Shown here: positions 8,979-28,783 of the stretch, in pieces
Position numbering within the stretch: position 1 is the stretch's first letter
Layout of the letters: every line of letters begins with the position of its first letter
Translations under genes and position numbers: made by a program
NCBI GenBank assembly: GCA_029861865.1
Contig: JAOTYL010000005.1
Coordinates: forward strand, 124,001-188,000
DNA from: Myxococcales bacterium
Lineage (GTDB): Bacteria; Myxococcota_A; Polyangia; Polyangiales; Houyiibacteriaceae
Direction: 5' to 3'
DNA: 64,000 nt
Notes under the pieces: generated by a model
The model's database searches: none
Told to the model about the DNA's origin: nothing
What the model saw: the letters and a program-made list of their open reading frames with translations, nothing else

Positions 8979-9061
8979 TACGGCATCCTAAACTCCGCGG
9001 AGATTCGCACCAAGCATTGTGGGGCTGTGAAGTCTGATACTACATCCACACGAGTGGGGAC

Positions 9062-11976: not shown

Positions 11977-12917
11977 GAGTGCTGGTCACCGGGGGTGCGG
12001 GCTTCATCGCAAGTCACGTGGCCGAAGCGGCCATCGAAGCGGGTCACGACGTGCTCGTGGTAGACGATCTGAGCACCGGTCGCACGGAAAACCTCCCGAC
12101 GGGTGCGGATTTCCATCCCGTCGACATTCGCCATCGAGACGTATTCCGCGAGCTGGCGCTCCACTTCCGACCCGACGCCATCAGTCACCACGCCGCACAG
12201 GCCAGCGTCGCCATTAGCGTTCGGGAGCCGGGCTACGACGCCGAGGTAAACGTGCTTGGCTCGCTCAACGTAGCCGAGGTGGCCCGTGAGACCGGCAGCC
12301 GCTTGATCTTCGCAAGCACGGGAGGCGCCCTCTACGGAGAGGTTGCCGATGGCGTTGCGGCCGGAGAGGAGTCTCCGGCACGACCCTTGAGCCCGTATGC
12401 ATGCAGCAAGGCGAGCTTCGAGCTCTATCTCAAAGCCTTCGGGGAGACCTCGGACCTGAACTATACGATCCTGAGATACGCAAACGTGTACGGGCCCCGA
12501 CAAGACCCTCACGGAGAAGCTGGGGTGGTCGCGATCTTTCTCCGAAGACTTCTCCGACGTGAGCCGATCCAGGTCAATGCGCGAGATCGCCTCGGGGATG
12601 ACGGCTGCGTCCGTGACTACGTCTTCGTTCGGGATGCGGTTCGGGCTAATCTCGCGGCGTTCGAAGGGGCGCTCGACCGGCGCACGATCAACATCGCGAC
12701 GGGGATCGGGACGTCGACGCGAATGCTGGCCGAGAATCTCGCTAGCCTGGTGAGCCATCCTGCCATCGTTCGCGACGGCGAGCATAGAGCTGGCGATCTC
12801 GGGCGCTCGGTGCTCGATCCCACCGTCATGACGTCGATCCTCGGAGATCCAACCCCGCTAGCCGAAGGCTTGGAGACGACCACCGAGTGGTTTCGCCTCG
12901 AATCGGAGTCTTCATGA
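11973..12917 (+). CDS. Extended SDR NAD-dependent epimerase/dehydratase
   Basis: The 314-residue protein opens with VRVLVTGGAGFIASH (NAD site), has VVDDLSTGR near residue 30, the Ser of FASTGGALYG near 113 and the catalytic Y-A-C-S-K near 142, and N-V-Y-G-P-R near 172. It is GalE-like; 4-epimerase or related activity on a UDP-sugar is likely, but the substrate is unknown. The GTG start at 11973 lies in GTGA overlapping the stop of the dehydratase gene, and its own stop overlaps the next start, so all four enzymes are probably translated as a coupled set. Confidence 0.88.
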   Translation: MRVLVTGGAGFIASHVAEAAIEAGHDVLVVDDLSTGRTENLPTGADFHPVDIRHRDVFRELALHFRPDAISHHAAQASVAISVREPGYDAEVNVLGSLNVAEVARETGSRLIFASTGGALYGEVADGVAAGEESPARPLSPYACSKASFELYLKAFGETSDLNYTILRYANVYGPRQDPHGEAGVVAIFLRRLLRREPIQVNARDRLGDDGCVRDYVFVRDAVRANLAAFEGALDRRTINIATGIGTSTRMLAENLASLVSHPAIVRDGEHRAGDLGRSVLDPTVMTSILGDPTPLAEGLETTTEWFRLESESS

Positions 12918-14191
12918 GCGAACGGGTCGCTGTGATAGGCCTCGGGTACGTAGGGCTTCCCGTAGCGTTAGCCTTCGCCCGTGAGTTCGAAAACACCGTG
13001 GGCTTCGACGTGTCGAGCGAACGCATCGAGGCGTTGCGTGTCAACCAGGATCGCACGCGAGAAGTGAGCGAATCGGAGCTTGCGGAGACGACCCTCCAGC
13101 TGACCAACGACCCTGCCGATCTCCGCGGGTGCACCTTCTTCATCGTTGCGGTCCCGACCCCAATCGACGACGATCGTCGTCCGAATCTCGGTCCCCTCAT
13201 GTCGGCAACGAAGATCGTCGGCAGCGCTCTAGCGCCGGGCGGTGTCGTCGTCTACGAATCGACCGTCTACCCAGGGGTGACCGAAGAGCGGTGCGGGCCC
13301 GTCTTGTCCGAAGCTTCGGGGCTGACGCAGTCTAAAGACTTCAAGCTCGGATACTCGCCGGAGCGGATCAACCCAGGCGACAAGGAGCACACCTTCGAGA
13401 AGATCATCAAGGTAGTTTCCGGCGAAGATCCCGAAACCCTCAAACGAGTCGCTAACGCTTACGAACAGGTCGTGGAGGCCGGTGTTCACCGCGCTCCGTC
13501 GATCAAAGTCGCCGAGGCCGCCAAGGTGATCGAGAATACGCAGCGAGACCTCAACATCGCACTCATGAACGAGCTTGCGTTGATCTTCGACAGGCTCGAC
13601 ATTCGTACCCAGGACGTGCTCGACGCGGCTGGAACGAAGTGGAATTTTCTCCGTTTTTCGCCTGGGTTGGTTGGAGGGCACTGCATCGGGGTCGACCCCT
13701 ACTACCTGACCTCGAAGGCCGAGGCAGCGGGCTATCATCCAGAGGTGATCCTCGCCGGCCGCCGGATCAACGACGACATGGGGCGGTACGTGGCCAAGCG
13801 AGTCGTGAAGCTCCTACGGCAACAAGGTCACCCCATCAAGGACTGCCGGATCGGCGTTCTCGGGCTGACCTTCAAGGAAAACGTTCCGGACCTCCGCAAT
13901 AGCCGGGTCCCGGACATGATCGACGAGCTTCGTGACTACGGGATCGAGCCCCTGGTGCACGACCCCTTGGCATCGGGCGATGAAGCCAGCCGCACGTATG
14001 GGATCGAGCTCCGCCCCTGGGACGCGCTGACCGACCTCGATGGCGTAGTGCTAGTGGTGCCCCACAAGCACTACCTCGAGCGCCTCGATCACATCGTCGA
14101 CTGTGTGCGAAACGGCGGTGTGTTCGTCGATGTGAAGTCTCTGGTGGACCCGAGTAGCTTGAGAAGCGACTTGAAATACTGGAGCCTGTAA
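12914..14191 (+). CDS. UDP-N-acetylhexosamine 6-dehydrogenase (WbpA/VipA-like)
   Basis: It oxidises C6 of a UDP-sugar to a uronic acid with two NAD+. The 425-residue length matches the WbpA/TviB subfamily. NAD site GLGYVGLP at residues 9-16, then VAVPTP near 84, E-S-T-V-Y-P-G near 115, and the catalytic Cys in GGHCIGVDPYY near 256. The C-terminal UDP-binding domain begins with VLGLTFKENVPDLRNS near 313. It is the last gene of the four-gene operon, meeting the OPX gene tail to tail across 13 bp. Product is probably an acidic sugar for the neighbouring export system. Confidence 0.93.
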   Translation: MSERVAVIGLGYVGLPVALAFAREFENTVGFDVSSERIEALRVNQDRTREVSESELAETTLQLTNDPADLRGCTFFIVAVPTPIDDDRRPNLGPLMSATKIVGSALAPGGVVVYESTVYPGVTEERCGPVLSEASGLTQSKDFKLGYSPERINPGDKEHTFEKIIKVVSGEDPETLKRVANAYEQVVEAGVHRAPSIKVAEAAKVIENTQRDLNIALMNELALIFDRLDIRTQDVLDAAGTKWNFLRFSPGLVGGHCIGVDPYYLTSKAEAAGYHPEVILAGRRINDDMGRYVAKRVVKLLRQQGHPIKDCRIGVLGLTFKENVPDLRNSRVPDMIDELRDYGIEPLVHDPLASGDEASRTYGIELRPWDALTDLDGVVLVVPHKHYLERLDHIVDCVRNGGVFVDVKSLVDPSSLRSDLKYWSL

Positions 14192-14204: not shown

Positions 14205-14813
14205 CTAGAACAGCCGTTCCGGGACGAAAATGATATCTCCGGCCGCTACCTCGATGTCTTCGGCCTGACCCCGCGTCACCCGCTCTACGGGAACGCGATA
14301 GCGCACGGTCTCGTCGCCGATGCGTCGCGTGACCACCGTGCCGTCCCGGTCAGCCAACGACGAAAACCCTCCCGCCATGCTGATCGCTTGAACGACCGTC
14401 ATCCCTGGCTCGAGGGGGAAGGCGCCCGGATTTGCGACCGCCCCGACGACGCTGATCCGTTTCGACGCGTACTCCCGAACATAGACCGAGACATGCGGAT
14501 TGCGGAGCAGATCCCGGTCCCGGAGCTCGTTTTCGAGCTTGGCCGCGACCGCAGTGGGCTCGAGGCCCTTCACCTCCACCGCGCCGAGGAGCGGGAAGTT
14601 GATCGTGCCATTGGGAGCCACCTGGTGATCGCCCGACAACGCCTCTTCGCCGAAGACTCGGACCGAGAACGAGTCCCCGGGCCCGAGCGTCGTGTCATCG
14701 GTTGCGGGCGGGGGCACCTCGGTCGCTTGAACACCACGCTTGCTGCATGCAGCCGCAGCGACTCCGAGGATGAGAAAGATGCCGATCAGTAGAAGACGCG
14801 AAGGCCGATCCAT
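14205..14813 (-). CDS. Short OPX (Wza-like) polysaccharide export lipoprotein
   Basis: The 202-residue precursor has a lipoprotein signal ending in AAAAC near residue 23, a polysaccharide-export domain from LGPGDSFSVRVFGEE, and one SLBB-type domain (KRISVVGAVANPGAF). It ends right after IIFVPERLF. It lacks the extra SLBB domain and the C-terminal membrane helix by which E. coli Wza crosses the outer membrane, so it is a short (class 3-like) OPX that would need a separate pore. The upstream gene, overlapping by 28 bp, encodes such a barrel. It likely sits on the periplasmic side of the outer membrane. Confidence 0.9.
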   Translation of the reverse strand: MDRPSRLLLIGIFLILGVAAAACSKRGVQATEVPPPATDDTTLGPGDSFSVRVFGEEALSGDHQVAPNGTINFPLLGAVEVKGLEPTAVAAKLENELRDRDLLRNPHVSVYVREYASKRISVVGAVANPGAFPLEPGMTVVQAISMAGGFSSLADRDGTVVTRRIGDETVRYRVPVERVTRGQAEDIEVAAGDIIFVPERLF

Positions 14814-16102
14814 GCTTCGACTTTCTGGTATTCACCCGAGGGATCCGGTAACGGAGCGAACCCCACGTACTGGAAGTCGGTGAAGTCTGCCAAATAAGCG
14901 ACCTCGGCGAACACCGAAAGCCACGCTTTGAAGCGGTATTCGCCCCAGAGCGCGATCCTGGTGCGTATGTCTTTTCGCTCGGGTTCCGTGCCCAAGAACG
15001 AGCCGTCTGGATTTAGGGCGAGACCCGACTTGTCGAACGAGACCCATGCCTTGAGCCCAACCAATAGGGCGCCTGCGCCAGTGAACGTCGCGTTGATATA
15101 GAGGCGGTTCATCACCGTGAAATTGCCGATGAACGACGGAAGGATATTGCGGTTGTAGCCGCCATCGAGGGAGATCGTGGGGCGTGGCGTCCACCGTGCT
15201 TCGACTCTTGCCGTGACGTCATCGAAATCCTGGAGCAACTCGTAGAACCCCACTGCGTAACCGATGAAGGCCGTGAACGACAGTGTGTTCGTGAGAGCGC
15301 CGTTGTACCCGATCTGACTTCGCACGCGGTTGTTGTCCGAGAGGACAGTCGGGGAGAGCGCGACGAGTTCCGGGTTGAGATATTGCTGGTGGGCGAACTC
15401 GAAGTCGTAAACGATCGCGGAGCTCGGGAAGAAGCTCCAAGTGAATTGCGCTGGGACTCGATGGGTTAGGTTGTCGGCGTACTCGTAGTCGTTCGAGTCG
15501 AAGAACTGGATGACGTTCGTGTAGCCGACGCGTCCTTCCAGCACCTCGCTCTTGCTTCGCCCGACGAAATCGACCGCCGCGTTGTTGATGTTGCGTCCGT
15601 AGCTCGTCGTTTCCCCGGTGAGGGTGTTCGGATCCGCAAAGGGCCGGATGGTCCGGAGAAATCTGTCCCGCACCTGCAGCGAAAACACACGCGACGGGTT
15701 GTAGGCGAAGTCTATGTGGGCTTCGGCGCCCACGTTGTCTTGCACACGGTTATTGAAGTAGTGGTAATAACGTGCTCCGACTCCGCCTCTAAATGTGATC
15801 TTTTGCGGCTCGACCTTGTTGCTCTCGCCCTCAGCCTGGCGCTGCGGGCTCAGCGTGGCGAAGTCCAAGTAGCCGGTCAGACGCAGGATGAACGAGTCTT
15901 CTCGGTTCAAGCTTTGGAGGAAGACATTTGAGTCGTACCCGCTTTCGACTGCGATGCCCGGATGAAGGACGAAGCGGCCGGTCTTGAACCCGGGGCCTTC
16001 GTTCGCAGCACGGTCCGGGAAAAGGGTCTGGCCCTCCGCCAGGTCTGGAAGCAACAGGACGCATGCAGCCAGAGAGAGCCCTAACCTTAGGCAGCAGCGC
16101 AT
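14786..16102 (-). CDS. Outer-membrane beta-barrel, likely Wzp-type export porin
   Basis: The 438-residue precursor has a signal peptide (cleavage near AEG-QT, residue 24), then an ESGYDSNVF motif near residue 53 that is common in the beta-barrel-porin-2 group, and alternating polar/aromatic strands throughout. It ends in V-F-Y, an outer-membrane sorting signal with terminal aromatic. The stop lies 28 bp inside the OPX gene. In M. xanthus, short OPX proteins work with dedicated Wzp barrels; this pair fits that pattern. Strand number cannot be counted reliably by eye. A run of eight C at 16113-16120 lies just before the start. Confidence 0.85.
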   Translation of the reverse strand: MRCCLRLGLSLAACVLLLPDLAEGQTLFPDRAANEGPGFKTGRFVLHPGIAVESGYDSNVFLQSLNREDSFILRLTGYLDFATLSPQRQAEGESNKVEPQKITFRGGVGARYYHYFNNRVQDNVGAEAHIDFAYNPSRVFSLQVRDRFLRTIRPFADPNTLTGETTSYGRNINNAAVDFVGRSKSEVLEGRVGYTNVIQFFDSNDYEYADNLTHRVPAQFTWSFFPSSAIVYDFEFAHQQYLNPELVALSPTVLSDNNRVRSQIGYNGALTNTLSFTAFIGYAVGFYELLQDFDDVTARVEARWTPRPTISLDGGYNRNILPSFIGNFTVMNRLYINATFTGAGALLVGLKAWVSFDKSGLALNPDGSFLGTEPERKDIRTRIALWGEYRFKAWLSVFAEVAYLADFTDFQYVGFAPLPDPSGEYQKVEAWIGLRVFY

Positions 16103-16143
16103 GAACTAGTCCCCCCCCTGCGCATAGCATCACGCTCCGCTAG

Positions 16144-16740
16144 TTAGCTGACACCACTGACCGGTGGGGGAATGTAGGGGATGGGTGGTTCTGGAACCGG
16201 CGCTACGACCGCTGGGTCCGCGTCGGGCGCGAATAGATCGACCTCTTGCGTGACTTTCGTGTCTCCAGTGTCGAAGAGATCTTGCCCTACGCACTGATTG
16301 GCTGCTTGTTGAAGCATTTTGAACTTCTGCGACAGCACACCGATGACTGCAAATTCGTGATTGCGACTCCCAGCGTCGTTGGCTTCAATGGACTCTTTCA
16401 GCGCGGCTTGGCGGCGCTTCAGATTTTGAAGGTTTGCGTTACACTGTGCGAGCTTGTCATCGACGCAGGTCGCGCGGATGATGTCCTTTTCACTCTTGGC
16501 GCTTTGAAGGGCTTGAGCTTGGGCTGCACAGCTCGCGGTGGCCTCCTCAACGGCTGCATCTGCTGCTTGCGCCTGCTGTTTGGGAGACAGAGTCGTCGGC
16601 TCGGCTCTCGCGTTGACGGATTCGACTTTGACGACATCGACGGTCGCCTCGCCGCGCTGAGCAACGGCGTAACCAAACTCGCTTCCGGCCAGCAACAAAC
16701 CGAGGCACACCCCTACCGACGGCCCCATCCGTGTAAACAT
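16144..16740 (-). CDS. Periplasmic coiled-coil protein of the export operon
   Basis: The 198-residue precursor starts at an ATG with AGGAGA 6 bases upstream and has a signal peptide ending near GYAVAQ. Residues about 60-150 are Ala/Gln/Lys-rich and predicted helical (KQQAQAADAAVEEATAS), with four or five Cys. The tail is proline-rich (PEPPIPYIPPPVSG). I do not recognise a family. It is the first gene of the operon that continues with the beta-barrel (41 bp later) and the OPX protein. A periplasmic adaptor or stabiliser is possible, but this is inference from position only. Confidence 0.75.
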   Translation of the reverse strand: MFTRMGPSVGVCLGLLLAGSEFGYAVAQRGEATVDVVKVESVNARAEPTTLSPKQQAQAADAAVEEATASCAAQAQALQSAKSEKDIIRATCVDDKLAQCNANLQNLKRRQAALKESIEANDAGSRNHEFAVIGVLSQKFKMLQQAANQCVGQDLFDTGDTKVTQEVDLFAPDADPAVVAPVPEPPIPYIPPPVSGVS

Positions 16741-16765
16741 CAACGATCTCCTAAACTTGCAGAGA

Positions 16766-16793
16766 ATTATACGCGGCGCACTACTCAAGTCAA
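16766..16793 (-). promoter_or_regulatory. Strong sigma-70 promoter of the export operon
   Basis: On the minus strand TTGACT (16793-16788), a 16-bp spacer and a perfect TATAAT (16771-16766) lie 25 bp before the ATG at 16740, whose ribosome-binding site AGGAGA is clear. It is the best consensus promoter in the window and separates this operon from the Glt-like operon upstream. Confidence 0.7.
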
Positions 16794-16844
16794 TGGATTC
16801 GCAGTTCAGTCTAAGCCGCAAACGCGGCGCAACTCCAAGAAAAC

Positions 16845-18311
16845 TCAGTTCTGGGGCTGGAAAACGAAGGGATAGCGGAAGGTGACACTGCCGCCATCCG
16901 GTCCGGGATTGAATCGAAAGCGGCTGATCGTCCGCGTCACACAGTTTGCGACGGCAGGGCTACCGGTCGTATTCTCTGTCGCCTTGGCGCCGGTCACGTT
17001 GCCACGTTCTTGGATCGTGAAGGTTACCGTGACCTTGCCGGCAAGGCCCGGGTTCTTTCGAAGCTCGGACTCGTAGCACCGAGTGATCGACTTGATACGC
17101 TGTTTGATCTGTCGCTGGACGAGCGCTGCATCGAACTCGCCGCTGCCGCCGATGTCACCACCCGTGCGGACCCCTACGTCTCCACGGACCTGGCGCTCCT
17201 TGACCGCAGCGCCCTCCTTAGCGGCTTTGCCAGCGCCCTTCGAAGCCTTGAGTGAGCCGAGGCCTGCGCTTTGTCCGCTACCACCTCCGGTACGCGTGCG
17301 GAGCGTTCCGGTCTCGCTCTTGGTTGCGACCCCGACGCCGGAGGCCTGCGCCAACACATCGGCGGCGTTGCCCGTCACGGCGCCCCCGGCGAGCACGTCA
17401 CCGAGCGCCCCGCCGTCGCCACCCAGCGCGCCGAGCAACATCGCTTCGGCCTGGGCTGCTGCCTCTTGGGCGATCCGTGCGCGGGCCTCCGCGCTGACGG
17501 CCGGGTCGTCGGCGCTGCCTGCGGCCTCCTGAGCTCCGCGTGCGTCGGGTTTCTTGTCTGGTCGCTCCGCCTTTGCTTCTTTCTCTTCGGCTTCTTCTTC
17601 GGCCTCGTCGCCGGGCACTTCTTCCTCGACCTCGGGGGGTTCGACGGGCGCTTCGAAGATCAGCCGAGCCAGATTCTCGGGCATCTCTTGGGTGCCGGTC
17701 TCGATCTCCCAGTCCGCGTTCTCCATGTAGATGATGAACCCGAAGAACAACATGTACGAGAAGATCACCCACGTGGTGAACGTCCAGTCGATGTTCTTGA
17801 CGAAGCCACGCTGAACGGCCGCTGGCAGCTGTGGTTTCGGCGTGATCGGCGGAGCGGTCACGAACTCGAAAAAGACCGTGAAATCCCCCATGCGAATGGT
17901 ACCGCGGGAGCTGTCTGCCAGCTTGATCTGATAGTGCGTCCCAGCGTTGCGGGCGGCGCCGGTTTCCCGCAAGTGCTCGAGCTTTTGGACGCCGCCGGGC
18001 AGTGCCACCTTGCCGTTCATGTCCCCGGTGAAGTTGAGAATGTAGTCGTCGCCTACGAGTTGAAAGAGCTCGAAGCGCGACTCCAGCTTCGCCGGCAACG
18101 TGCCGGACTTGATGATCAGATGGTTCCGCGCCGCAGTCCCAATCGAGACGGTCTCTCGTCGACGAATAATCCGCTCTTCGACGATCTTCTTGTCTTTGAA
18201 GAGACCGATGCGAAGGACCCTCGGGCCACCCCTTCTCATCGGGACGGCCTGCATCGCCATCGTCATGGCGCCAGGTCGCCTTCCCGTCCTCGGACTGTCT
18301 GGTTGCGTCAT
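16845..18311 (-). CDS. GltG/PglI-like membrane protein with AgmX/PglI C-terminal domain
   Basis: The 488-residue protein has an N-terminal FHA-like domain (residues about 25-150, with ETVSIG and DDYILNF), one membrane helix near 175-193 (WVIFSYMLFFGFIIYM), an acidic/Lys-rich stretch near 224-257, Gly/Ala-rich low-complexity sequence, and a C-terminal TonB-like AgmX/PglI domain near 400-485 (ITRCYESELRKNPGL, then RFRFNP and YPFVF). This is the domain order of M. xanthus GltG, an inner-membrane part of the gliding machine. It ends a six-gene operon. The ATG at 18311 was chosen; the frame continues upstream in sequence without family character. Confidence 0.85.
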   Translation of the reverse strand: MTQPDSPRTGRRPGAMTMAMQAVPMRRGGPRVLRIGLFKDKKIVEERIIRRRETVSIGTAARNHLIIKSGTLPAKLESRFELFQLVGDDYILNFTGDMNGKVALPGGVQKLEHLRETGAARNAGTHYQIKLADSSRGTIRMGDFTVFFEFVTAPPITPKPQLPAAVQRGFVKNIDWTFTTWVIFSYMLFFGFIIYMENADWEIETGTQEMPENLARLIFEAPVEPPEVEEEVPGDEAEEEAEEKEAKAERPDKKPDARGAQEAAGSADDPAVSAEARARIAQEAAAQAEAMLLGALGGDGGALGDVLAGGAVTGNAADVLAQASGVGVATKSETGTLRTRTGGGSGQSAGLGSLKASKGAGKAAKEGAAVKERQVRGDVGVRTGGDIGGSGEFDAALVQRQIKQRIKSITRCYESELRKNPGLAGKVTVTFTIQERGNVTGAKATENTTGSPAVANCVTRTISRFRFNPGPDGGSVTFRYPFVFQPQN

Positions 18312-18378
18312 CGGGCAGTACTCCGCATCTCGAGGAGACGTTTGGCCGATTCCAAGGATCTGGTGCGCGTGCGGATCA

Positions 18379-18633
18379 TCAGAACGGTTCCTCCTGCACG
18401 CTTCTGGCGACCTCACGAAGGAAGCTGGTGCGGAGCTCGAGCACCTCATAGCCCAAATTGGAGCGATTGAGGATGTAGAACGCGTTCGGTTTCTGCACAC
18501 GTCCTTCGATGACGATCTCTTCGAGCTGAATCACGCGCGGCTGTCGCTTCTTCTTGCCTTGGCCGAGAGCGGTCGTCGCGAAGATGGCGCTCAGCAGGAT
18601 GGCGAGCCAAGTCATGGACATGTAGCGTTTCAT
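18379..18633 (-). CDS. Small exported protein in the GltF position
   Basis: The 84-residue precursor has a signal peptide (MKRYMSMTWLAILLSAIFATTALG), a basic patch GKKKRQPR and the hydrophobic segment VIQLEEIVIEGRVQKP, ending in acidic residues. The start overlaps the stop of the TPR lipoprotein gene (ATGA), and the GltG-like start follows 67 bp later. By order it sits where gltF lies in M. xanthus (gltD-gltE-gltF-gltG), but I cannot confirm homology by eye. It is probably periplasmic. Confidence 0.7.
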   Translation of the reverse strand: MKRYMSMTWLAILLSAIFATTALGQGKKKRQPRVIQLEEIVIEGRVQKPNAFYILNRSNLGYEVLELRTSFLREVARSVQEEPF

Positions 18634-19979
18634 TCGGCCCCTGCCTCCTCTCGTGCGCCCCGCTCGGTTTCTCGCGCAGAGCGCTCCTTGTCACGCTCGA
18701 TTCGCCGCTTTGCACGTTGGATCATTCGGTCGAGGTCGCGCAAGTACTCTTCGGATTGGTCGTCACGCCCAAGGCGTGGGCCCATCTGGCTCCTGTAGAT
18801 CTTGAACTCGCCGACCGATTTCTCGAGCGCGCTGACCTCGTCGAGCCCCGGAAAATCACCGCCTGCCGATAGGTACAGCAGCCCAAGGCCGAAATGAGCC
18901 TCTGGGAGCTTGGTTTCGAGCTCGATGGCACGGCGGTAGGCTTGCTGGGCATCGGTCCACCGTTGAGAGGCCCGATACGCGTCTCCGAGGTTGACGTGGA
19001 CCGCAGGCAGGGTCGGCACGAGCTTCTCGGCCACCTGGAAGTGGGAAAGAGCATCGGCATAGTTGCCGCCCGCTAAGAGCTGGATCCCGAGCGCCATCCG
19101 TGCTTCGGCGTAGTCGGGGCGGAGCTGCACCGCCCGTAGGTAGGCCTCGAGCGCATCGCGCAGTCTGCCCGGCTCGTCTTTGAGCCTTTCGCCGTTTAGG
19201 AAATGAAGCTCCGCCACGTTTGCGTCGATGGCCATTGCCTGGTCTAGGATCGAGTCCTCGAGCTCGTCACGACCCTGCGCACGGCTTGCCTTGATTAGCG
19301 CGATCAGAGCGGGGACGAATCGCTCGTCGCACTTTAGAGCACGCCTGGCGGCCATCCATGCCTCGTCGTAACGTCGCGCCTCGACTAACACTTCCGCGTA
19401 CAGTGCTTGGATCTCCAAATTGGTGCGATGGTCCCGGGCAATCGGCTCTACGGATGCGACGGCGTCTTGGACATCTCCTCGGCGGATCTCGATCGTTGTG
19501 ATTCCGCGCGCCGCCGGTTCGTAGTCCGGAAGGACGCCCAAAGACCGTTGGTAGTAGTCGAGGGCCTTGCGCTCGTCACCGGATCGGTCGGCGAGCACAC
19601 CGAGGTTGTAGAGTGCCGGGTAAGCCCGCGCGTCTTTCTTGAGGGTGTCTTGGAAATGCTGTTGAGCCGAGGCAATATCGTTAGCCTGCGCTGCGTCTAG
19701 GCCGCGCTTGAATGCCCTATTCGCTTTGGACGACATCGGTGTGCGCTCTGGGCGACTACACTGTTCTGCGCGCGTAGCCCCCCATGGGCTCGTTGCTGCG
19801 TCGGTGGACGCGATGGCCGGCGATTGCCCACCCTTCTCGACACTGTCGTCTTGCATAGGGAGCTCGCCGCCACTCGTGACCTCGGCGTCCGGAGGCGTGG
19901 ACGGCTCTCCACCCTTGCAGCCCTGCGTAGCGAAAATCATCACCACGAAAGCCATCGTCGCGTGTACCCGGAGACGCAT
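18630..19979 (-). CDS. TPR outer-membrane lipoprotein, GltE/AglT-like
   Basis: The 449-residue precursor has a lipoprotein signal with Cys21 in ATQGC, a low-complexity acidic linker to about residue 85, then about nine TPR units (for example YPALYNLGVLADRSGDERKA and AVHVNLGDAYRASQ), and a charged helical tail rich in Arg/Glu. A strong ribosome-binding site (AAGGAGG, spacing 8) fixes the ATG at 19979. The previous stop overlaps it as TGATG. Size, lipidation and TPR content match GltE/AglT, which tethers periplasmic GltD to the outer membrane. Confidence 0.83.
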   Translation of the reverse strand: MRLRVHATMAFVVMIFATQGCKGGEPSTPPDAEVTSGGELPMQDDSVEKGGQSPAIASTDAATSPWGATRAEQCSRPERTPMSSKANRAFKRGLDAAQANDIASAQQHFQDTLKKDARAYPALYNLGVLADRSGDERKALDYYQRSLGVLPDYEPAARGITTIEIRRGDVQDAVASVEPIARDHRTNLEIQALYAEVLVEARRYDEAWMAARRALKCDERFVPALIALIKASRAQGRDELEDSILDQAMAIDANVAELHFLNGERLKDEPGRLRDALEAYLRAVQLRPDYAEARMALGIQLLAGGNYADALSHFQVAEKLVPTLPAVHVNLGDAYRASQRWTDAQQAYRRAIELETKLPEAHFGLGLLYLSAGGDFPGLDEVSALEKSVGEFKIYRSQMGPRLGRDDQSEEYLRDLDRMIQRAKRRIERDKERSARETERGAREEAGAE

Positions 19980-22900
19980 CACCGTTCCTCCTTCGTGATA
20001 GCAGGGGGTGCTACGCCTGGTCGAATCTCCATCGGCCTGCCACGCGGCGCGCGAGCAAACTCGCCCGGTGCGTAGCCCTGGAAGGTAGCGTCTCGCGCCT
20101 GCGCCTCCGCGATGCACTCCGCGATGCGCTCGTCGCCATAGGCCTGCAAACGATCGATTGCGATGCGTGTGTATTCGTCGTCGAAGCTTCCCGCACGCGC
20201 AGCCCGCGCGGCCAGGGCGTAGCGCGCAACTGCAAAGCATTCGACCGGACGCACCTTTTCATCGAGCAGCTGACGGACCCGATCTTCGACCTCGAGTCGG
20301 ATGTCTTCGCGGTCGTATTGGTCGACCTTGCGGAGTTGCTTCTGCATGTCGAGCGGCATGACGAACGGTGCGTTCAAGATAGAACGAGCCAGCAGTTCGT
20401 AGGTTCGGCCCTGGCGGACGAACGATGCGATGGTCCAGCGAGGACGGCGATACTCGAGCACTGGCTCATACCCCTTCACGATCGACTGGGCCTCAGCGCT
20501 GCCTTTTTCGATCTGCTTGGCCAAGGTGGTGGTGTACGCTTCGATCGTCCTCGGTTTGCTGACTTTGATCTGAAACTGCTCGAAATCTTCGATCCTGCCG
20601 TCGGCGAGAATGAAGCGGGCCTCCGCCGCGTAGCCCGCCGCCAGCGATCCTGGCGGTTGTCCGGTCCGCTCATACGCCTTGGTCACGTCGAGCAGCGCTG
20701 TACGATACTCGCGGGAGCGTCTTCGGGCCTTCTCCGATTCGGCGATCCGCCAGTGGGCCTGCACGACGAGGTCACCGGCCTGGCCGTCATTGCCGTAGGC
20801 CTTGATGAACTCGCGCATTCCTCGGATCGCTTCGGGGTAGCGCTTTTGCCGATACGCCATTTCCGCGATTCGATAGAGGGCGGTCTGCTTCACTTCCCGG
20901 TCGTCCACCGTACTGTAGACGCGCCGATAGTACCGTGTCGCCTCTTTGTATTGCTGAAGCTGTTCGAGCATGATTGCCGAATTCACCAAGGCATTGGTAC
21001 GTTGCTGCTGGACCGCTGGGTCGGCCGAGCTTGCGAATCGCTGCGAATCGGCGAGCACGCGGTAGTTTTCGACGGCACGGTCGAAGTCGAAGTACCGCGC
21101 CGCGTTATAGGCGAGCTTGAAATGCGCGTTGGCCAAGATCGCGTCCAGGCTCTTCTGCTCTTCTGCGTCTTCAGCCCGACGCGGGCCCACCTCGTCGATG
21201 ATTCGCTGATACAACGTGCCGGCCGATTCGTAGCGGTTGGTTGCTTCGAGCGCCAACGCGGCGTACTCGAGCGCGATCGGTGCCTGTTTGTCGTTTGGAT
21301 TGGAGTTGACCGCACCGAGCAACATCGTGGCTGATTGTTCGTAGAGACGCTGTCGTTCAGCCCCTGTCGCCTTGCCTGCGCTCTTGTAAACCTCGAGCGC
21401 ATCTTGGTAGACGAGCGCGTTGAGATCGGAGCCGGCGCGACAGATCGGCTTGTCGCGATTGGCTGGCTTGTCGCAGTCGATCGCCCCCGCGCCCGCCGTG
21501 AAGGTGCAGCCTCGTTCTTGAATGTTTGTCGCGAGGCGCCGAATCTCCTCAGAATCCCGTTCAGCCACCGCCATGGCGCGTAGATTCTCCCACGCCACCT
21601 GCCCGGTGGCATCGGCTTCGGATCCTACGCAGCGTTCTTCGTAGATTCGGTTGAAGCGTGCTTTGGCCTGCGGCCAGTACCCGTACCAGTAAAGGAGCAA
21701 CGCGTTGTTGTAGTCGTAGGCGGCGCGGACACCCTCGGTGTCACGCTGCGGGCTCACTCGCGCCAGGTAGATCTCGCGCGCGCGTGCGAGACGCTGGACG
21801 GTTTCCGGCATCGCCACGGGCTGCACGGTCGGTGGCTCCCCGACGACGGCTGGCGCTTGACTTCGCACGGCCAGACGCCCTTCTTCGATGTCCCGGTCCG
21901 AAATCCGCTTCAAAGACTCGACCACTCGACGAGCAGACTCGGCCAGATAGCTGTCGTCCACGTTCGAGTCGCGAACCTCCGCATACTCGGTGGCCGCCTG
22001 CTCGTAGCTCTCCGACCAATAGAGCGCGTCGGCCAGGTTGTAGTGGAGCTCGTAGCCCTGGGGGTTGTTGGGATAGTGCTCGAGGTATCCCCGGTATGCG
22101 GCCGCTGCCAACGCATACTCGCGTTGCGCGTCCCGACAAAGCCGTACGTCCCGCTCCTCCACGCACTGTTGGCGTATGCGCTGTGCTCGCGAATGATGGT
22201 GAACGGCGGTCACGATCAGGGCGTTTTCGGCCAATTGCTCGGCGTTTCTCTGCTCCGCGGGGCGGTCCATGTTCGCGTTCCACCACGTGCTCCCCTGCAC
22301 GTATCCGGCAAGCTCGGTGCGCACGACGATCGCCTCCTCGAACTCGTTGTGCATCTGATGTGCGACTGCGATGTCGTTCAGGATCTCCGGTGTGCGGTAG
22401 TGATTGGGCCACCTCGAAAGCGCGAGCCGCCAAGCAGCGATGGCCTCCGGATACTTGGCTTCGTCGAAGTACACCTGGCCGAGCTGAAAGTAGACCTCCG
22501 GTGTCCAGGCGCGGTCTTGGGGCAACAAAGACTGGTCTTGGATCCGCTGGATGCCGGTGCGCTTTCCCTCGACGCGATCTGGGATCTGGTTTTCGTTCCA
22601 ATCGTCGTAGGCGAACGCGATCCCGAGGTATTCCACGGCTTCCGGTCGCAGCTCGGATCCCGCCCGTCCGGTTTCGCGCTCCGCGTCGTCGGACCACTGC
22701 ACGAGCTTGGCGAAATTCTGAATCGCCTCGGGGTAGCGGCTCGCCCGATAATAGGCCCAGGCGACTTTGTAGAGGGCCAGGTTGTAGTTGCGGTCATCCG
22801 GTTGTTCGAGGATTCGGTCGTACGCAGCGATGGAGAGGTCTAGAGCGTTCTCGCCGCCGAAATCGTCGAAGTGGTACTCACCGATTCGAAACCAGGTTTC

Positions 22901-23860
22901 GCTCACGAACCGTGCATCCGGCGCAATCGCCTCACACTTTTCGTAGGGATCGACAAACCTCCCGCCGACCGAGGCGTCGAGGCGGCGACCATCGAGGGTC
23001 AGTGCCGGGTACTTGGCCTGCGCAGCCGTCGAGGCATCCGGAGGTGGCGGACGCCAATTAGGGTCGTAGGTGTACCTGTTGGCACACACCAAGGCGAGCC
23101 ACGCGGCGACGGCTTCTTCGGGTCGGCCCGTCTCGTTCAGGGTATATCCGATCAAATAGTACACACCGTCGGAGCGCTCGTACTTCGGGAATCGGCGAGC
23201 CAGCTCTTTATAGAGGTCGATAGTCGGGGTGAAGTCGGGCGCGGCTGGAAGAGTGTCCTCCGCCGTCGTGTCTCCCGCCTCGCGAGCCGCCTGGGCGCGG
23301 TCGTATAGCTGCTGAAACTCGATGGCGCTCTGCTCGAAGTAGAGCTCGCCCAGTCGAAACATCGCGTCGGGGCTGTACCTCGGGTGATCGGGATAGCGAC
23401 GGATGAACTCCTCGAAAATTTGGATCGCGTCTTTCCGGGCCTCGTTGAAGGCTCGGTCCTCTGCCTCGATCTGTGTGCCGTACCAACGATCGCGTGCGCG
23501 TCGTTGTTGTAAGTACTCGCGACGTACCAGCGACGTCACAGTGTCCCGATAGGCACCCCCGCTCTCGAGGAAACGTTCGACTTCCCCTTCGAGTTGCCGC
23601 AAACCCTCGAGCTGTTGCTCCGTGGGCCGCGGCCGCTCGTCCACCACCCGCTTTTCGGTATCCTGCAAGAATGGCGGCAAGGTAGTATCGGTCGTGCCCT
23701 CCCACGGGGTTGCTTTGACGTCTTCAGTTCGTGGCGAGTCCCGGTCCGGCTGGTCCGACTCGGGCTGCGGCTCGAGCTCCACGTCCTGTGCCCCTACCGA
23801 GGATGGCAGCGGGAGCAAGGCCGCCCACAGGGCGAGCGCCATGAGCCGTGCTCGGGTCAT
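19979..23860 (-). CDS. Giant periplasmic TPR protein, GltD/AgmU-like
   Basis: The 1293-residue precursor has a signal peptide (cleavage near VGAQ, residue 25) and then TPR/Sel1-like helical repeats for nearly its full length, such as HPRYSPDAMFRLGELYFEQ near residue 160 and VYFQLGQVYFDEAKYPEA near 455. A Cys-containing loop occurs around residues 785-815. It corresponds in size and type to GltD/AgmU (about 1200 residues), the periplasmic scaffold joining inner and outer membrane parts of the gliding complex. Start and stop overlap both neighbours (ATGA upstream, TGATG downstream), so translation is coupled. Confidence 0.83.
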   Translation of the reverse strand: MTRARLMALALWAALLPLPSSVGAQDVELEPQPESDQPDRDSPRTEDVKATPWEGTTDTTLPPFLQDTEKRVVDERPRPTEQQLEGLRQLEGEVERFLESGGAYRDTVTSLVRREYLQQRRARDRWYGTQIEAEDRAFNEARKDAIQIFEEFIRRYPDHPRYSPDAMFRLGELYFEQSAIEFQQLYDRAQAAREAGDTTAEDTLPAAPDFTPTIDLYKELARRFPKYERSDGVYYLIGYTLNETGRPEEAVAAWLALVCANRYTYDPNWRPPPPDASTAAQAKYPALTLDGRRLDASVGGRFVDPYEKCEAIAPDARFVSETWFRIGEYHFDDFGGENALDLSIAAYDRILEQPDDRNYNLALYKVAWAYYRASRYPEAIQNFAKLVQWSDDAERETGRAGSELRPEAVEYLGIAFAYDDWNENQIPDRVEGKRTGIQRIQDQSLLPQDRAWTPEVYFQLGQVYFDEAKYPEAIAAWRLALSRWPNHYRTPEILNDIAVAHQMHNEFEEAIVVRTELAGYVQGSTWWNANMDRPAEQRNAEQLAENALIVTAVHHHSRAQRIRQQCVEERDVRLCRDAQREYALAAAAYRGYLEHYPNNPQGYELHYNLADALYWSESYEQAATEYAEVRDSNVDDSYLAESARRVVESLKRISDRDIEEGRLAVRSQAPAVVGEPPTVQPVAMPETVQRLARAREIYLARVSPQRDTEGVRAAYDYNNALLLYWYGYWPQAKARFNRIYEERCVGSEADATGQVAWENLRAMAVAERDSEEIRRLATNIQERGCTFTAGAGAIDCDKPANRDKPICRAGSDLNALVYQDALEVYKSAGKATGAERQRLYEQSATMLLGAVNSNPNDKQAPIALEYAALALEATNRYESAGTLYQRIIDEVGPRRAEDAEEQKSLDAILANAHFKLAYNAARYFDFDRAVENYRVLADSQRFASSADPAVQQQRTNALVNSAIMLEQLQQYKEATRYYRRVYSTVDDREVKQTALYRIAEMAYRQKRYPEAIRGMREFIKAYGNDGQAGDLVVQAHWRIAESEKARRRSREYRTALLDVTKAYERTGQPPGSLAAGYAAEARFILADGRIEDFEQFQIKVSKPRTIEAYTTTLAKQIEKGSAEAQSIVKGYEPVLEYRRPRWTIASFVRQGRTYELLARSILNAPFVMPLDMQKQLRKVDQYDREDIRLEVEDRVRQLLDEKVRPVECFAVARYALAARAARAGSFDDEYTRIAIDRLQAYGDERIAECIAEAQARDATFQGYAPGEFARAPRGRPMEIRPGVAPPAITKEER

Positions 23861-26247
23861 CGACCACCCTCAAAGCCATTGGTCTGGTCCATCACGTCAC
23901 GAAACTCGTCGTCTAGCGCCTGGATTTCGCGCGCTCGTTCTCGGGTAAGGCCGTCGATTCGGAGCCGGTGGTCCTCGCGTTTGGCCCAGGCGACGTCGAT
24001 CTTGCCCACATCAGCCCGCATGACCAGGTCGTAGAAACGGCGTCGAATGCGTTCGAAATTCAGATACGCGATCGCACCGACCACATCCTCCGTCTCGCCT
24101 TCGAGCGACTTCAGCGCCCTACGGTAGCGCGAGAGATTTCGGGTCTCTTCGTCGACGACGGTCATCATCTGCGAGACCCGCTTCTCAACCACCGCGTCAA
24201 CCTCGGCGTCACGTCGATCGAGGAGTCGCTCCGTCGCTGCAATACGCTGATGAGCACCGTCGAACGCCGCCCCACCCGAGCCGAGAATCTCCCGCTCTCG
24301 CTTGACCAGGTCGTTGAACTTCGACCGCTGCAGAGTATCGGATTGGTATCGTTTGTCGCCCACGCCTACGTGCAATCGCCCAACCTCGAGCCGCCGCCGG
24401 ATCCAAATCAGCCGCTCCTCGTAGTCTGCGATTTCGGCCTTGTGGTCGGTGAGCTGCGCCTCGAGCGCGGCCCTGTCGACTTTCTCGGGATCGACCGATG
24501 CCATCCCGATCTTCGAGGCGACGATGCGCGCTTCGAGGCCCAGTATCTCGACGCGAAGCCCCTGTAGCTCGCGCTCGAGCGCTCTGTACTCGTCGAGCTT
24601 GTCGAGATCTCGATCGACGAAGTCTTCGGTGTCGACGGGCATCTTTGCGACTTCGGCCTGGAGCTCTTTGCGCCTTGCTCGGATTTGACCGCCCTGGGCG
24701 CTCCGACTGCCGCGGGCTCGATCCTCGCCTTCGACGTAGGTTCCGCGCAGCTGGGCGAGTCGATTCCGAAGGCCGGTCGTCCTCTCGCGTTGCCGCCGAA
24801 GGTCCGAGAACACCGCCAACCGGTTGGGCGCAGCGAGGGCCGCAGTGATTCGAGCTGCGAGCTCGTCGGTTTCCTCCACGAGCTGCGTCGCCTCGCTCAG
24901 GTCCTCCAGCAGGCTGAGCGCCCGCTCGTAGCTGCCCTCGACCGGCGCCCACTGGCGCGCGCTCTCGGGCAGAAAGGCATCAATGTCGAAGTTGGCTACG
25001 TTTTGCCGGACAAGCCCTTTGAAATATTGCACTAAATCGGGGTGCTCGGTGCGTGTCCGATCGAGCTCCGCGGTGATCGGCGCGAACTGCTCCCGAACCT
25101 CCTCGAAGACCGCCTCGGCCTCGTTGTAGCGGGCGGCGCGTGCAAGCAGCTCTCCTCGTAGCACTTTGCCGTCTGCGTTGAGCGGGCTCTCCGGGGCTGC
25201 GATCGAGAGCACCTCGAGCGCCCGCTCCGCCTGGACCGCGTCGCCCATCGCGATGTATGTCCAGGCGAGCTCGTACTGCGCGGCGTCGAACCGGTCTGAG
25301 GTTTGAGGCACGGCGCGATAAGCATCGACAGCCTGTTCGTGTTGGCCGGTCTCGTAATAAAGCCGCGCCAGTGCGAGATAGGTGAGCTCTACGACTTCGG
25401 CTTCAGCTTCGTTGGCAGGCTCGTGGCCGAGGACCGACCGGAACGCTGCAATGGCATCGACGTACTCAGCGCGAAGAATGTGGATGGTTCCTGCGAAGTA
25501 TTTCGACCGAAGCGAGTAGGCATTGCCGCTTGGAATGGCGAGAAAAGCTTGACGGGCCTGCTCGAGGCGGGCTTGGTCGATGCCGCGAATCGCTCGATCG
25601 GCTGGCGCGTTGAGCACTTGATCGACCGGAACGGCGCGGTTGTAGAGGTACTTCGCACGGAAGTACGCGGTCGTCACCGACAACGTCGAGGACGGCAGCG
25701 CTTCCAACCGAGCAAAATAGACGTCGACGCCCCTAAAATCCTGGGTCTCGATCGCGATTTCGATGAGCCGACTGAGTGACCGTTCGAGATAGACGGAAAA
25801 CGCTGATTCACTACCCCGATCGATGATCTCTTCATAACGACGTCTTGCACCGAGGGTGTCGCCAGCGAGAAACAGCGACTCTCCGAGAAGGAAGAGCGCC
25901 TCCGGGTAGGCCCGATGCGTCTGATAGTGCTCGACGATGTCGGTGAACAAGATCGCTGCACGAAGGTAGTCTTCGAGGCGAAGGTAGAGCTCCCCGTCCG
26001 CGAGGCGCTCCTCCACGAACGTGTCGGTCTTGCGAGTGTTCACAGGGACCGGCCTGCTCATGAGGCGCTGTGTGTCGGACTCGATATCTGCCAGGTCGCG
26101 GTTCAGTTGGTTGAGGTCCTGAGCGGCAACGGTGGAAACAGACGCAAGAAGGCTCCCTGCCAGAGCTACCCCCAGCCGGCCTTGCCACGCTCGCCCTCTG
26201 CCAAGTTTTGGTGAGGGCGGCGATGGAGTCGCCCCACGGCGTCGCAT
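23857..26247 (-). CDS. Periplasmic TPR plus coiled-coil protein of the Glt-like operon
   Basis: The 796-residue precursor has a long signal region (hydrophobic core near residues 25-42, ending VAAQ), TPR repeats over about residues 70-400, then long charged coiled coils (about 470-620 and 680-790; for example ELQGLRVEILGLEARI). M. xanthus GltC is a periplasmic TPR protein, so a GltC-like role is possible, but length and the coiled-coil half differ and I do not assert it. Its ATG overlaps the preceding stop (TAATG) and its stop overlaps the GltD-like start (ATGA). Confidence 0.8.
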   Translation of the reverse strand: MRRRGATPSPPSPKLGRGRAWQGRLGVALAGSLLASVSTVAAQDLNQLNRDLADIESDTQRLMSRPVPVNTRKTDTFVEERLADGELYLRLEDYLRAAILFTDIVEHYQTHRAYPEALFLLGESLFLAGDTLGARRRYEEIIDRGSESAFSVYLERSLSRLIEIAIETQDFRGVDVYFARLEALPSSTLSVTTAYFRAKYLYNRAVPVDQVLNAPADRAIRGIDQARLEQARQAFLAIPSGNAYSLRSKYFAGTIHILRAEYVDAIAAFRSVLGHEPANEAEAEVVELTYLALARLYYETGQHEQAVDAYRAVPQTSDRFDAAQYELAWTYIAMGDAVQAERALEVLSIAAPESPLNADGKVLRGELLARAARYNEAEAVFEEVREQFAPITAELDRTRTEHPDLVQYFKGLVRQNVANFDIDAFLPESARQWAPVEGSYERALSLLEDLSEATQLVEETDELAARITAALAAPNRLAVFSDLRRQRERTTGLRNRLAQLRGTYVEGEDRARGSRSAQGGQIRARRKELQAEVAKMPVDTEDFVDRDLDKLDEYRALERELQGLRVEILGLEARIVASKIGMASVDPEKVDRAALEAQLTDHKAEIADYEERLIWIRRRLEVGRLHVGVGDKRYQSDTLQRSKFNDLVKREREILGSGGAAFDGAHQRIAATERLLDRRDAEVDAVVEKRVSQMMTVVDEETRNLSRYRRALKSLEGETEDVVGAIAYLNFERIRRRFYDLVMRADVGKIDVAWAKREDHRLRIDGLTRERAREIQALDDEFRDVMDQTNGFEGGR

Positions 26248-26960
26248 TACCGAACGCCCTCACCCTCTGCGTCGGGTCGCGCTTGACGCTCGATCCGCTC
26301 GATGAAGCGCACCGCAGGGCGTTCTTCGAGCGGAGTCGTGGGGCCACCTTTCTCATAGCCGACCACGACCAGGGTCGCGACGCGCCCTTCGGGGACCGAG
26401 AACGTGTACGTGGATCGAACTTTGAAGCGGTACCCCTTCAAGTAAGAGAAGACCCCATAGCCATGTCCACGATACTCGAGGTTCACCGTCAAAGTGTGCT
26501 CGCCAGGTACGATGCTGCCGTTGTAAACCTCGAACTCTTCTTGGTCGCCGATGGCTCCCTCTTCATCGGCCTTGGTGAAGATCGGAGCGCCGTCGAGCGC
26601 GTACACCACGCGCACGAGCTTGAAGCCCTCCGACATTCGATTCTCGTGGACGATGACCGCCTGGCCGCCTCCAACGACCCCCTCGAGCACTGTTTCGGCG
26701 AGCAGTGAAAGGCGCGCCTTCGAACGGAAGATCTGCTCTTTGAGCTCGTTGATCCGCTGTTCCAGATCTCGGAGTCGAACCGCATAGGTGCCGGCATCGA
26801 TCGGCGCGGCCGTGGCAGATGCTGCCGGAGTCGGCAGAGCTTCGCTCGGCGGGGCGGTCGACGTGTCCGATGGGGGCGCTTCTTCGGTTTGGGCGACCGC
26901 TACAGCACCGCCCGCCCAAAGGCACGCCACTACGACTGAAAGCGCAACTTTCCCGCGCAT
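26247..26960 (-). CDS. Exported protein opening the Glt-like operon
   Basis: The 237-residue precursor has a signal peptide (cleavage near AVAQ, residue 24), a Pro/Ala/Thr-rich linker, a coiled coil near 60-85 (VRLRDLEQRINELKEQIF), and a beta-rich C-terminal domain (VIVHENRM, GEHTLTVNLEYRGHG, YRFKVRSTYTF). The second half resembles a PEGA-like or immunoglobulin-like beta sandwich; no firm family. GAGGGG lies 7 bases before the ATG. It overlaps the next gene by one base, so it belongs to the same envelope complex by context. Confidence 0.78.
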   Translation of the reverse strand: MRGKVALSVVVACLWAGGAVAVAQTEEAPPSDTSTAPPSEALPTPAASATAAPIDAGTYAVRLRDLEQRINELKEQIFRSKARLSLLAETVLEGVVGGGQAVIVHENRMSEGFKLVRVVYALDGAPIFTKADEEGAIGDQEEFEVYNGSIVPGEHTLTVNLEYRGHGYGVFSYLKGYRFKVRSTYTFSVPEGRVATLVVVGYEKGGPTTPLEERPAVRFIERIERQARPDAEGEGVR

Positions 26961-27050: not shown

Positions 27051-27210
27051 TGAAGGTCGAGGGCATCACGACGAACCGCGATCGACGAGAATCGTTGAAT
27101 TGTCCTTCACTTGCAGGGGTGCGATCGGGTAGATCCTCGGACACCGTCAACCGTCGATCCATGTGTGACTCGACCATGCATCTGCTGGCTATGGAATGCG
27201 AGGGCGCTTC

Positions 27211-27822
27211 GTGAGCGATCCCGGGGACGAAGAGCTGCTTTGCGCGTATCAAAGCGGCGAAACGCAGGCCTTCGAGATGTTGCTCGTTCGATACAGGCGA
27301 CCCCTCTTCAACTTCCTATTGCGTTCGGTGCGCGATCGCGGAAGAGCGGAAGAGCTCTACCAGGATGTCTGGATGCGCGTCATCGAGCGGTGCGACGAGT
27401 TCCGAGGGGACGCCAAGTTCTCGACATGGCTGTACACCATCGCCCGGAACCGTTGCGTCGATCACCAGCGAAAGATGGTCTTTCGGCGACATGCGTCCCT
27501 CGACGCACCCGTTCCGGGCTCGGCCCAGAGCCTGGGCGAGCGGGTTCCCAACCCCGGGCCTTCAACCGACCGCCTAGCGATGCGGAGGACCCTCCAAACC
27601 CGGATCGCCGAAGCCGTCGAGGAGCTTCCCGAGGACCAACGGGAGGTGTTTTTGATGCGTCAGGTGCAAGGCCTCGCCTTCAAAGAGATCGCCGAGGTCG
27701 TTGGGGTGTCGGCCAATACGGTCAAGAGCCGCATGCGCTACGCGCTCGAGCGCTTGCAAAATGGCTTAGGCGACCTCGAGGAGCACGTAGGCGAAACGGA
27801 GCCGCAGAAACATGAACTGTGA
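27211..27822 (+). CDS. ECF-family RNA polymerase sigma factor
   Basis: The 203-residue protein has sigma region 2 (LFNFLLRSVRDRGRAEELYQ and FSTWLYTIARNRCVD) and region 4 (ELPEDQREVFLMRQVQGL, then VSANTVKSRMRYALERL), and no region 1 or 3, as in extracytoplasmic-function factors. The GTG at 27211 has GAGG 7 bases upstream; ATG at 27196 would add five residues. An AAC (27074-27076), 16 bp and CGT (27093-27095) upstream are compatible with an autoregulated ECF promoter, though weak. The anti-sigma gene overlaps by 11 bp. The Glt-like operon is divergent from it. Confidence 0.92.
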   Translation: MSDPGDEELLCAYQSGETQAFEMLLVRYRRPLFNFLLRSVRDRGRAEELYQDVWMRVIERCDEFRGDAKFSTWLYTIARNRCVDHQRKMVFRRHASLDAPVPGSAQSLGERVPNPGPSTDRLAMRRTLQTRIAEAVEELPEDQREVFLMRQVQGLAFKEIAEVVGVSANTVKSRMRYALERLQNGLGDLEEHVGETEPQKHEL

Positions 27823-28783
27823 GCAATGCAAAGAGGCGGTCTTCGAACTGATCGAACGCGAGGTGGCCGATCCCGCCGGAGTGAAAGAGATCCTCGACCG
27901 CTGTCCGGAGTGCCGAGCGTTGTTCGACGAGATGAAGGCGGCGCTCGTCGCCGTAGATCAACTCCCGCTCGAGGAGCCACCGGCGCGTGTGGATGCAGAC
28001 ATACTACGCGCCGCCCTGATGCGACGTACGAACGTGACGCGTGTCGGCAGGCGGCGCTTTCAAGCGCCGCCATGGGCAATGGCAGCCATTGCGCTTCTAG
28101 CCGTGGGCGTTGGCGTGTGGGCGATTCCGCGTGACACGGAGCTCGCAACCGAAGACGCGCTCGGCACCCCGGTCGCTGAATCCGACGAAGCTATCGCGGC
28201 GGCACCGAGTCCAGCGAGTGCGCCAGCAGAGCTCGAAGAGGCGGTGGGCGAGAAAGCCGAGCAGGCGTTACGACTCAACCAGGAAACCCAAACTGCGCCC
28301 CTGGCGAAGACCGCCGCGAAGCCTTCGGTCGCGCGACAGCAGCGCGCACGGACCAAGCGTAAGAGCGCTCCTGCCCCCGCAAGGCAAGTCGAGGCGGTCG
28401 AAGCTGCGCCCGAAGAAGGCATCGACGTCGGCGCAGTGGCAGGGATGGCGGACATGGCCGAGGCGCCAGCCGCCAATGGACGCGCTGCTGGCGCCGCAAG
28501 CACCGTGGTGTTGGCGGACGAGTCGGCGGATCGGGAGGCCAACAAGGAGCTCAAGGAAGACGACGATGACGCCACGTGCCGGAAGACCGTCGCGGATTTC
28601 GAGAAGCGTCGCCGGCGCGACACCGGCTTCAAACCCGATGCCGAGCTAGAGCTCGCCTTGGGGCGCTGCTACGCCAAGCTCGGCGACACCAAACGCGCCC
28701 GGACATGGCTAGAACGCGCAGCCGCTCACCCCAAAACCAAGATCCGTGCCCAAATCGCCCTCAAGAAATTAACCCCCAATTAA
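27812..28783 (+). CDS. Membrane anti-sigma factor with zinc-finger-like head
   Basis: The 323-residue protein begins with C3-x2-C6 and C31-x2-C34. The typical anti-sigma zinc finger is H-x3-C-x2-C with one upstream Cys, so this is a four-Cys variant. A membrane helix follows at about 87-105 (WAMAAIALLAVGVGVWAI), then a long Ala/Glu/Lys-rich periplasmic linker and a helical C-terminal domain with a TPR-like unit (LELALGRCYAKLGDTKRA). It should hold the upstream sigma factor at the membrane and release it on an envelope signal. The ATG lies inside the sigma gene, so levels are probably coupled. Confidence 0.87.
   Translation: MNCEQCKEAVFELIEREVADPAGVKEILDRCPECRALFDEMKAALVAVDQLPLEEPPARVDADILRAALMRRTNVTRVGRRRFQAPPWAMAAIALLAVGVGVWAIPRDTELATEDALGTPVAESDEAIAAAPSPASAPAELEEAVGEKAEQALRLNQETQTAPLAKTAAKPSVARQQRARTKRKSAPAPARQVEAVEAAPEEGIDVGAVAGMADMAEAPAANGRAAGAASTVVLADESADREANKELKEDDDDATCRKTVADFEKRRRRDTGFKPDAELELALGRCYAKLGDTKRARTWLERAAAHPKTKIRAQIALKKLTPN

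Follow-up and report, generated by a model that had tools for sequence, protein, structure and literature searches.

The gene row and its parts

We analysed a stretch of 64,000 nucleotides from a Myxococcales bacterium (assembly GCA_029861865.1, contig JAOTYL010000005.1, positions 124,001 to 188,000), called the window below. On its minus strand, positions 14205-26960 hold a row of nine genes: 1cc, then GltC-, GltD-, GltE-, GltF/CglF- and GltG-like genes, '6', Wzp and Wza (Table 1). An earlier note on this DNA had counted eight; the Glt-type genes, the barrel and the OPX gene that it described are all present, and the gene it passed over is '6', between GltG and the barrel. The first four junctions of the row, from 1cc to F, touch or overlap. 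Gaps of 67 bp between F and G, 104 bp between G and '6' (holding a promoter-like site) and 41 bp between '6' and Wzp follow, and the last two genes, Wzp and Wza, share 28 bp. The row may form one transcription unit or two; the promoter-like site would permit separate expression of the pore genes.

Table 1. Genes and candidate promoter of the row (positions in the window)
Feature	Position	Strand	Properties and best evidence
1cc, first gene of the row	26247..26960	-	secreted, 237 amino acids; new conserved family; profile matches in most loci
GltC-like TPR protein	23857..26247	-	796 amino acids; NF033756 GltC 7.1e-21, profile 82-450/622
GltD-like giant periplasmic TPR protein	19979..23860	-	1293 amino acids; BLASTP to own-genome GltD 7.5e-13; relatives' profile 434 bits
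GltE-like TPR lipoprotein	18630..19982	-	about 450 amino acids; NF033758 GltE 4.1e-24
GltF/CglF-like small secreted protein	18379..18633	-	84 amino acids; NF033764 CglF 3.8e-5
GltG-like protein	16845..18311	-	488 amino acids; cytoplasmic part, one membrane helix, TonB-like AgmX/PglI tail; NF033760 9e-51, NF033768 2e-27
Sigma-70-like promoter pattern, just 5' of '6'	16766..16793	-	TTGACT-16-TATAAT, 11/12 matches; number of such sites not above shuffles
'6', secreted protein	16144..16740	-	198 amino acids; new family; between G and Wzp in relatives
Wzp, outer-membrane beta-barrel	14786..16102	-	438 amino acids; EpsL model 1.3e-5; BLASTP to Myxococcaceae barrel 3e-11
Wza, short OPX lipoprotein	14205..14813	-	202 amino acids; Pfam Poly_export 7.3e-21, SLBB 3.5e-14; no Wza_C

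Starts of the GltE-like gene (a GTG) and the GltG-like gene were taken from a same-genus relative, and the membrane helix of the latter (residues 178-196) is predicted from hydropathy.

Homologues of gltC, gltD, gltE and gltG are clustered together in the window, as in the Agl/Glt core (Group B). The earlier note had recognized GltD, GltE, a GltF-position protein and GltG in type and order. Both types and order are real, but it overlooked GltC, the second gene, and its GltE cannot be told from other TPR proteins by similarity. All matches to Glt-type NCBIfam models, except that of the AgmX/PglI tail, fall below the curated equivalog cut-offs; equivalog level is not reached for GltC, GltE or GltG (the GltG-like protein, for instance, scores 173 bits against a required 650). 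The GltC-, GltE-, GltG- and CglF-like scores lie so far below these cut-offs that the proteins are better regarded as distant homologues than as gliding proteins proper.

Support differs from gene to gene. Library models give only TPR-type matches to the GltD-like protein; it aligns with GltD of the genome's own glt operon across 1032 amino acids, and the profile built from its relatives finds the same canonical GltD. For GltE, another TPR model in NCBIfam scores nearly as high, and the E profile from relatives scores a different TPR lipoprotein higher; because TPR models overlap, this assignment leans on gene position. Besides the 84-residue gene, the CglF model matches the gene at position F in the genome's separate glt operon, and in most loci an F-like gene is kept after E, ahead of the motor or G. 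In the GltG-like protein only positions 171-647 of the model are matched. The missing first 170 positions correspond to the FHA-bearing region of the genome's own canonical GltG, and Pfam gives no FHA domain in the GltG-like protein. Since the match begins at 171, the N-terminal FHA region is absent; of the earlier description, the single helix and the AgmX/PglI tail hold and the FHA-like part does not. Overall, the similarity of C, D and G exceeds that of generic TPR proteins.

The short OPX protein of the earlier note is confirmed. Wza has Poly_export and SLBB domains without Wza_C, which places it in the short OPX class; it lies beside a barrel gene and is 43-45% identical to the OPX protein of the corresponding row in Myxococcaceae. 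Profile matches to the barrel are weak (Pfam BBP2_2 0.0017, in addition to NCBIfam EpsL), and its assignment draws on the homologous barrel found at this place in the Myxococcaceae row. Neither '6' nor 1cc has a confident Pfam match, and a search with their structure models found no solved relative at E <= 0.001; they are new families. In the predicted structure of '6', which occupies the GltH position and matches no NCBIfam model, three helices form a bundle; the protein has two invariant cysteines and a proline-rich tail. For 1cc the prediction is an N-terminal helix followed by a beta domain (AlphaFold mean pLDDT 75). The window holds no gene annotated as GltA, GltB or GltH; no genome-wide search for GltA or GltB was made.

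Conservation across the phylum

Of 141 genomes searched within the phylum, 113 have GltG-like proteins. The best 60 loci were annotated, first with the window proteins and then with profiles built from relatives, and 57 could be evaluated. In the 6 kb that follow G, and on its strand, an OPX gene is found in 40/57 loci, a barrel in 52/57 and '6' in 45/57. By a rough estimate, chance alone would place an OPX gene in such a 6-kb same-strand stretch in well under 1% of loci. Neither Wzp nor Wza occurs within the roughly 20 kb examined at other glt-type loci (0/21; 20 around other GltD paralogues in the family of Pyxidicoccus fallax, plus the window genome's own glt operon), and on this ground we reject chance adjacency. 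The neighbourhoods that the earlier note proposed to compare are strongly conserved in relatives, not random.

Scanning contigs with the GltD-like alignment revealed, among other named cases, a complete row, 1cc-C-D-E-F-R-Q-S-G-6-Wzp-Wza, in Lujinxingia vulgaris, and MglB-MglA directly upstream of 1cc in P. fallax. The pair mglB-mglA, encoding the GTPase module of polarity, lies directly 5' of 1cc at L209-L228, the Myxococcaceae loci, and 5' of 1cc in several other lineages (L128, L129, L131, L136, L142, L150, L153, L157, L158, L163, L173 and L176). At L150, L163 and L157 an unknown protein of 300-400 amino acids comes after G, and L163 also has a gene that reads as a cyclic-nucleotide-binding type. 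At L093, L094 and L099 the barrel is retained downstream of GltG without an OPX gene, and the next large gene reads as FtsK-like. Partial rows were also seen in contigs whose metagenome-bin labels are Bdellovibrionales, Dadabacteria and KSB1 (L151, L179 and L190), with no OPX match in the stretch examined.

The motor

The earlier note was correct that the window operon contains no AglRQS-type motor, but this is not a trait of the system: AglRQS-type genes are present in 37/57 loci, in nearly all of them between F and G on the same strand (L097 is an exception), and this is the arrangement in most other lineages. The note had also suggested looking for AglRQS elsewhere in the genome, and two such operons do lie side by side on contig 5, unlinked to the row. 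In a tree of concatenated R-Q-S proteins (562 columns, 59 sets), one operon, R1, groups with the stand-alone M2-type motors of Myxococcaceae (support 99.9/100). Together these stand-alone motors nest inside the operonic ones (99.6/95), apart from AglRQS-M1. R2, the second operon, clusters with the AglRQS motors of M1 type. The labels M2 and M1 were assigned to Myxococcaceae motors by chromosomal position.

Although the motor is unlinked to the row in Myxococcaceae, the two seem to be kept or lost together. An M2-type motor and a WzaB-type OPX are both present in 22/30 Myxococcaceae-type genomes (sampled from the family of P. fallax) and both absent in 8/30, a count that overstates the evidence, since the eight joint absences are probably few independent, related losses. 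The G4-type GltD agrees with this pattern in 28/30 genomes, the two exceptions being fragmented assemblies. As to physical contacts, AglR contacts GltG (PMC3169522) and NfsG (PMC3858216), and MXAN_3003 of the M2 motor bound neither GltG nor NfsG in two-hybrid assays (PMC3858216).

The row in Myxococcaceae and Myxococcus xanthus

Gene order from MglA-1cc to Wza is the same in 20/20 Myxococcaceae-type loci, with the OPX gene downstream of GltG in all; MglB is present in 19/20, the remaining locus being truncated at the edge of its sequence, and 2/20 have extra DNA between C and D. The window proteins are homologous to every member of this row, at 23-58% identity.

Judged by published locus numbers that match the 20 related genomes, M. 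xanthus has the same row at MXAN_1926-1915. These numbers are mglB MXAN_1926 and mglA MXAN_1925 (PMC3441718), the cluster G4 gltD paralogue MXAN_1922 (PMC3169522), and wzpB MXAN_1916 and wzaB MXAN_1915 (PMC9603273, PMC9601211). By inference 1cc would be 1924, C 1923, E 1921, F 1920 and G 1919, with '6' coming next after a gap or a small gene; among the intermediate numbers, 1922 alone turned up in the papers searched. The earlier note had set the window against M. xanthus, where the nfs and exo loci are indeed separate, but a row in the window's gene order appears to exist there too. The M. xanthus row has mglBA at its head, whereas the window row has none and the closest MglA of the genome is on contig 18. 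Published work treats the M. xanthus parts separately: wzaB is termed an orphan, and the functions of G4 and of the M2 motor are termed unknown. WzaB is required for secretion of the biosurfactant polysaccharide (BPS; PMC7310880).

Genomic surroundings

A glt operon closer to the canonical one (C-D-E-F-G, GltG 392 bits) lies on contig 14 of the window genome, followed by genes for a TPR lipoprotein and a protein of 3083 amino acids. The genome has two OPX genes only. The second is on contig 8, next to genes that look like a chain-length and flippase-type set of its own; Pfam gives only one Wzz match, a Wzc-like protein on contig 12, beside a Wzy-like gene, with no OPX gene in the stretch read. 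Several of these names on contigs 8 and 12 were read from sequence and not profiled. The window Wzp-Wza pair is thus apart from its likely synthesis genes, as M. xanthus wzaB is.

Downstream of the exporter and convergent with it, the nucleotide-sugar genes reported in the earlier note are present at 8049-14191: a TviB-like UDP-aminosugar dehydrogenase, two epimerase/dehydratase-type genes, a CapD/PseB-like dehydratase and a sugar-1-phosphate nucleotidyltransferase. The TviB-like gene hints at a BPS-type (ManNAcA-rich) polymer, but is only suggestive. Just upstream of the row, a divergent pair at 27196-28783 (a gene that reads as a sigma factor, and an anti-sigma-factor match) is a possible regulator. 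No Rfam RNA was found in the window.

A proposed motor-coupled export machine and its alternatives

Does the row encode a single machine? Sequence comparison demonstrates the gene set, its order and its conservation across the phylum. It also shows that most other lineages hold the motor within the operon, and that a relocated motor is present or absent in step with the OPX gene. We consider it probable, at roughly 0.6, that the row encodes one trans-envelope machine in which a proton-driven AglRQS-type motor is coupled to an OPX/beta-barrel translocon for polysaccharide. The earlier note had likewise proposed a single Glt-OPX/barrel machine; the C, D and G similarities and the conserved neighbourhoods favour it, while its account of the motor and of M. 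xanthus was wrong or incomplete. In the mechanism we propose, the motor (R1-Q1-S1 on contig 5; M2, MXAN_3003-3005, in M. xanthus) would act on the membrane helix and TonB-like arm of GltG. The TPR proteins C, D and E, together with F, would transmit movement through the periplasm to '6' and Wzp-Wza, the presumed outer-membrane end; the machine would thereby power, gate or drag the pore and the polymer being secreted. For M. xanthus this would be BPS, and the mglBA genes heading the row suggest a tie to polarity control.

Several observations weigh against this proposal, besides the overstated co-occurrence count. Motility was not appreciably impaired in a polar MXAN_1922 mutant or an MXAN_3004 deletion (PMC3169522), whereas poor spreading is seen in wzaB mutants (PMC7310880); the motor complex is therefore not plainly required for BPS export, and may instead tune, place or speed it. 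Some lineages (11 loci) have the barrel without an OPX gene, and MglBA and a motor occur without one at L150, L163 and L157. Finally, the M. xanthus row rests on locus numbers in papers and not on direct reading.

The normal motility of G4 mutants would agree with deposition of the Nfs kind, in which Wzp-Wza exports unaided and the motor complex afterwards grips and moves the polymer or pore along the surface. This has the closest tested precedent, since ExoA exports the Exo polymer and Agl-Nfs moves it round spores (PMC3858216). However, the other glt-type loci, including those of Nfs type, carry no adjoining OPX gene, unlike the row, and we think this explanation rather unlikely. It is improbable, too, that shared regulation has held two separate modules together, with the Glt-type complex acting on another target and Wzp-Wza being co-expressed with it. 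Such an arrangement could account for the promoter-like site and gene gaps before '6' and for lineages with one module only, but not easily for the strict phylum-wide order with '6' at the junction, nor for the fact that motor, GltD and OPX are lost jointly. A further candidate is a second gliding motor for which the OPX gene provides adhesive slime. This would fit the Glt homology and the mglBA genes at the head of the row in Myxococcaceae, but we reject it as very improbable: G4 and M2 mutants move normally (PMC3169522), and the window genome has a separate glt operon and a second AglRQS-type motor.

Relation to known systems and significance

The row is best read as a variant of the Agl/Glt core complex known as Group B (gltC, D, E and G with aglR, Q and S; Luciano 2011, PMC3169522), a reading that is strong on anatomy and evolution and tentative on function. 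It has the C, D, E and G homologues in order. Relatives of the window carry R-Q-S inside the operon, whereas the motor of the window genome is unlinked; in addition, the row is joined to F, '6', a barrel and an OPX gene. With the Agl-Nfs machine, which moves spore-coat polymer at the spore surface (PMC3858216), the proposed machine shares a Glt-type complex, an exported polysaccharide and an AglRQS motor. It differs in its motor lineage and in carrying an OPX/barrel pair of its own, whereas nfs and exo lie at separate loci. The composite translocons EpsX-EpsY, ExoB-ExoA and WzpB-WzaB likewise place a short OPX protein without membrane helix beside a barrel, and Glt-type neighbours go unmentioned in the available passages of the papers describing them (PMC9601211, PMC9603273). 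We found no publication joining G4, the M2 motor and wzpB-wzaB in a search that left out most subscription journals, so that priority is uncertain.

The proposal would bring three puzzles of M. xanthus under one hypothesis: what G4 does, with what the M2 motor partners, and the apparent orphan status of the BPS OPX gene wzaB. For export by short OPX proteins it would offer an energy source and a periplasm-spanning scaffold, the periplasmic gap being an acknowledged puzzle (PMC9603273). It would also offer a non-motility role for the conserved Agl/Glt core, to which Luciano 2011 (PMC3169522) assigned no function. We advance only tentatively the further idea that the ancestral Agl/Glt system was a secretion machine driven by proton-motive force, its OPX/barrel pore pushing, pulling or steering polymer under MglA control in some lineages, with Glt for gliding and Nfs for wrapping the spore coat as later offshoots that lost the pore. 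The conserved row suggests that polysaccharide export is driven or positioned by a gliding-type machine, from which gliding motility may itself have evolved.
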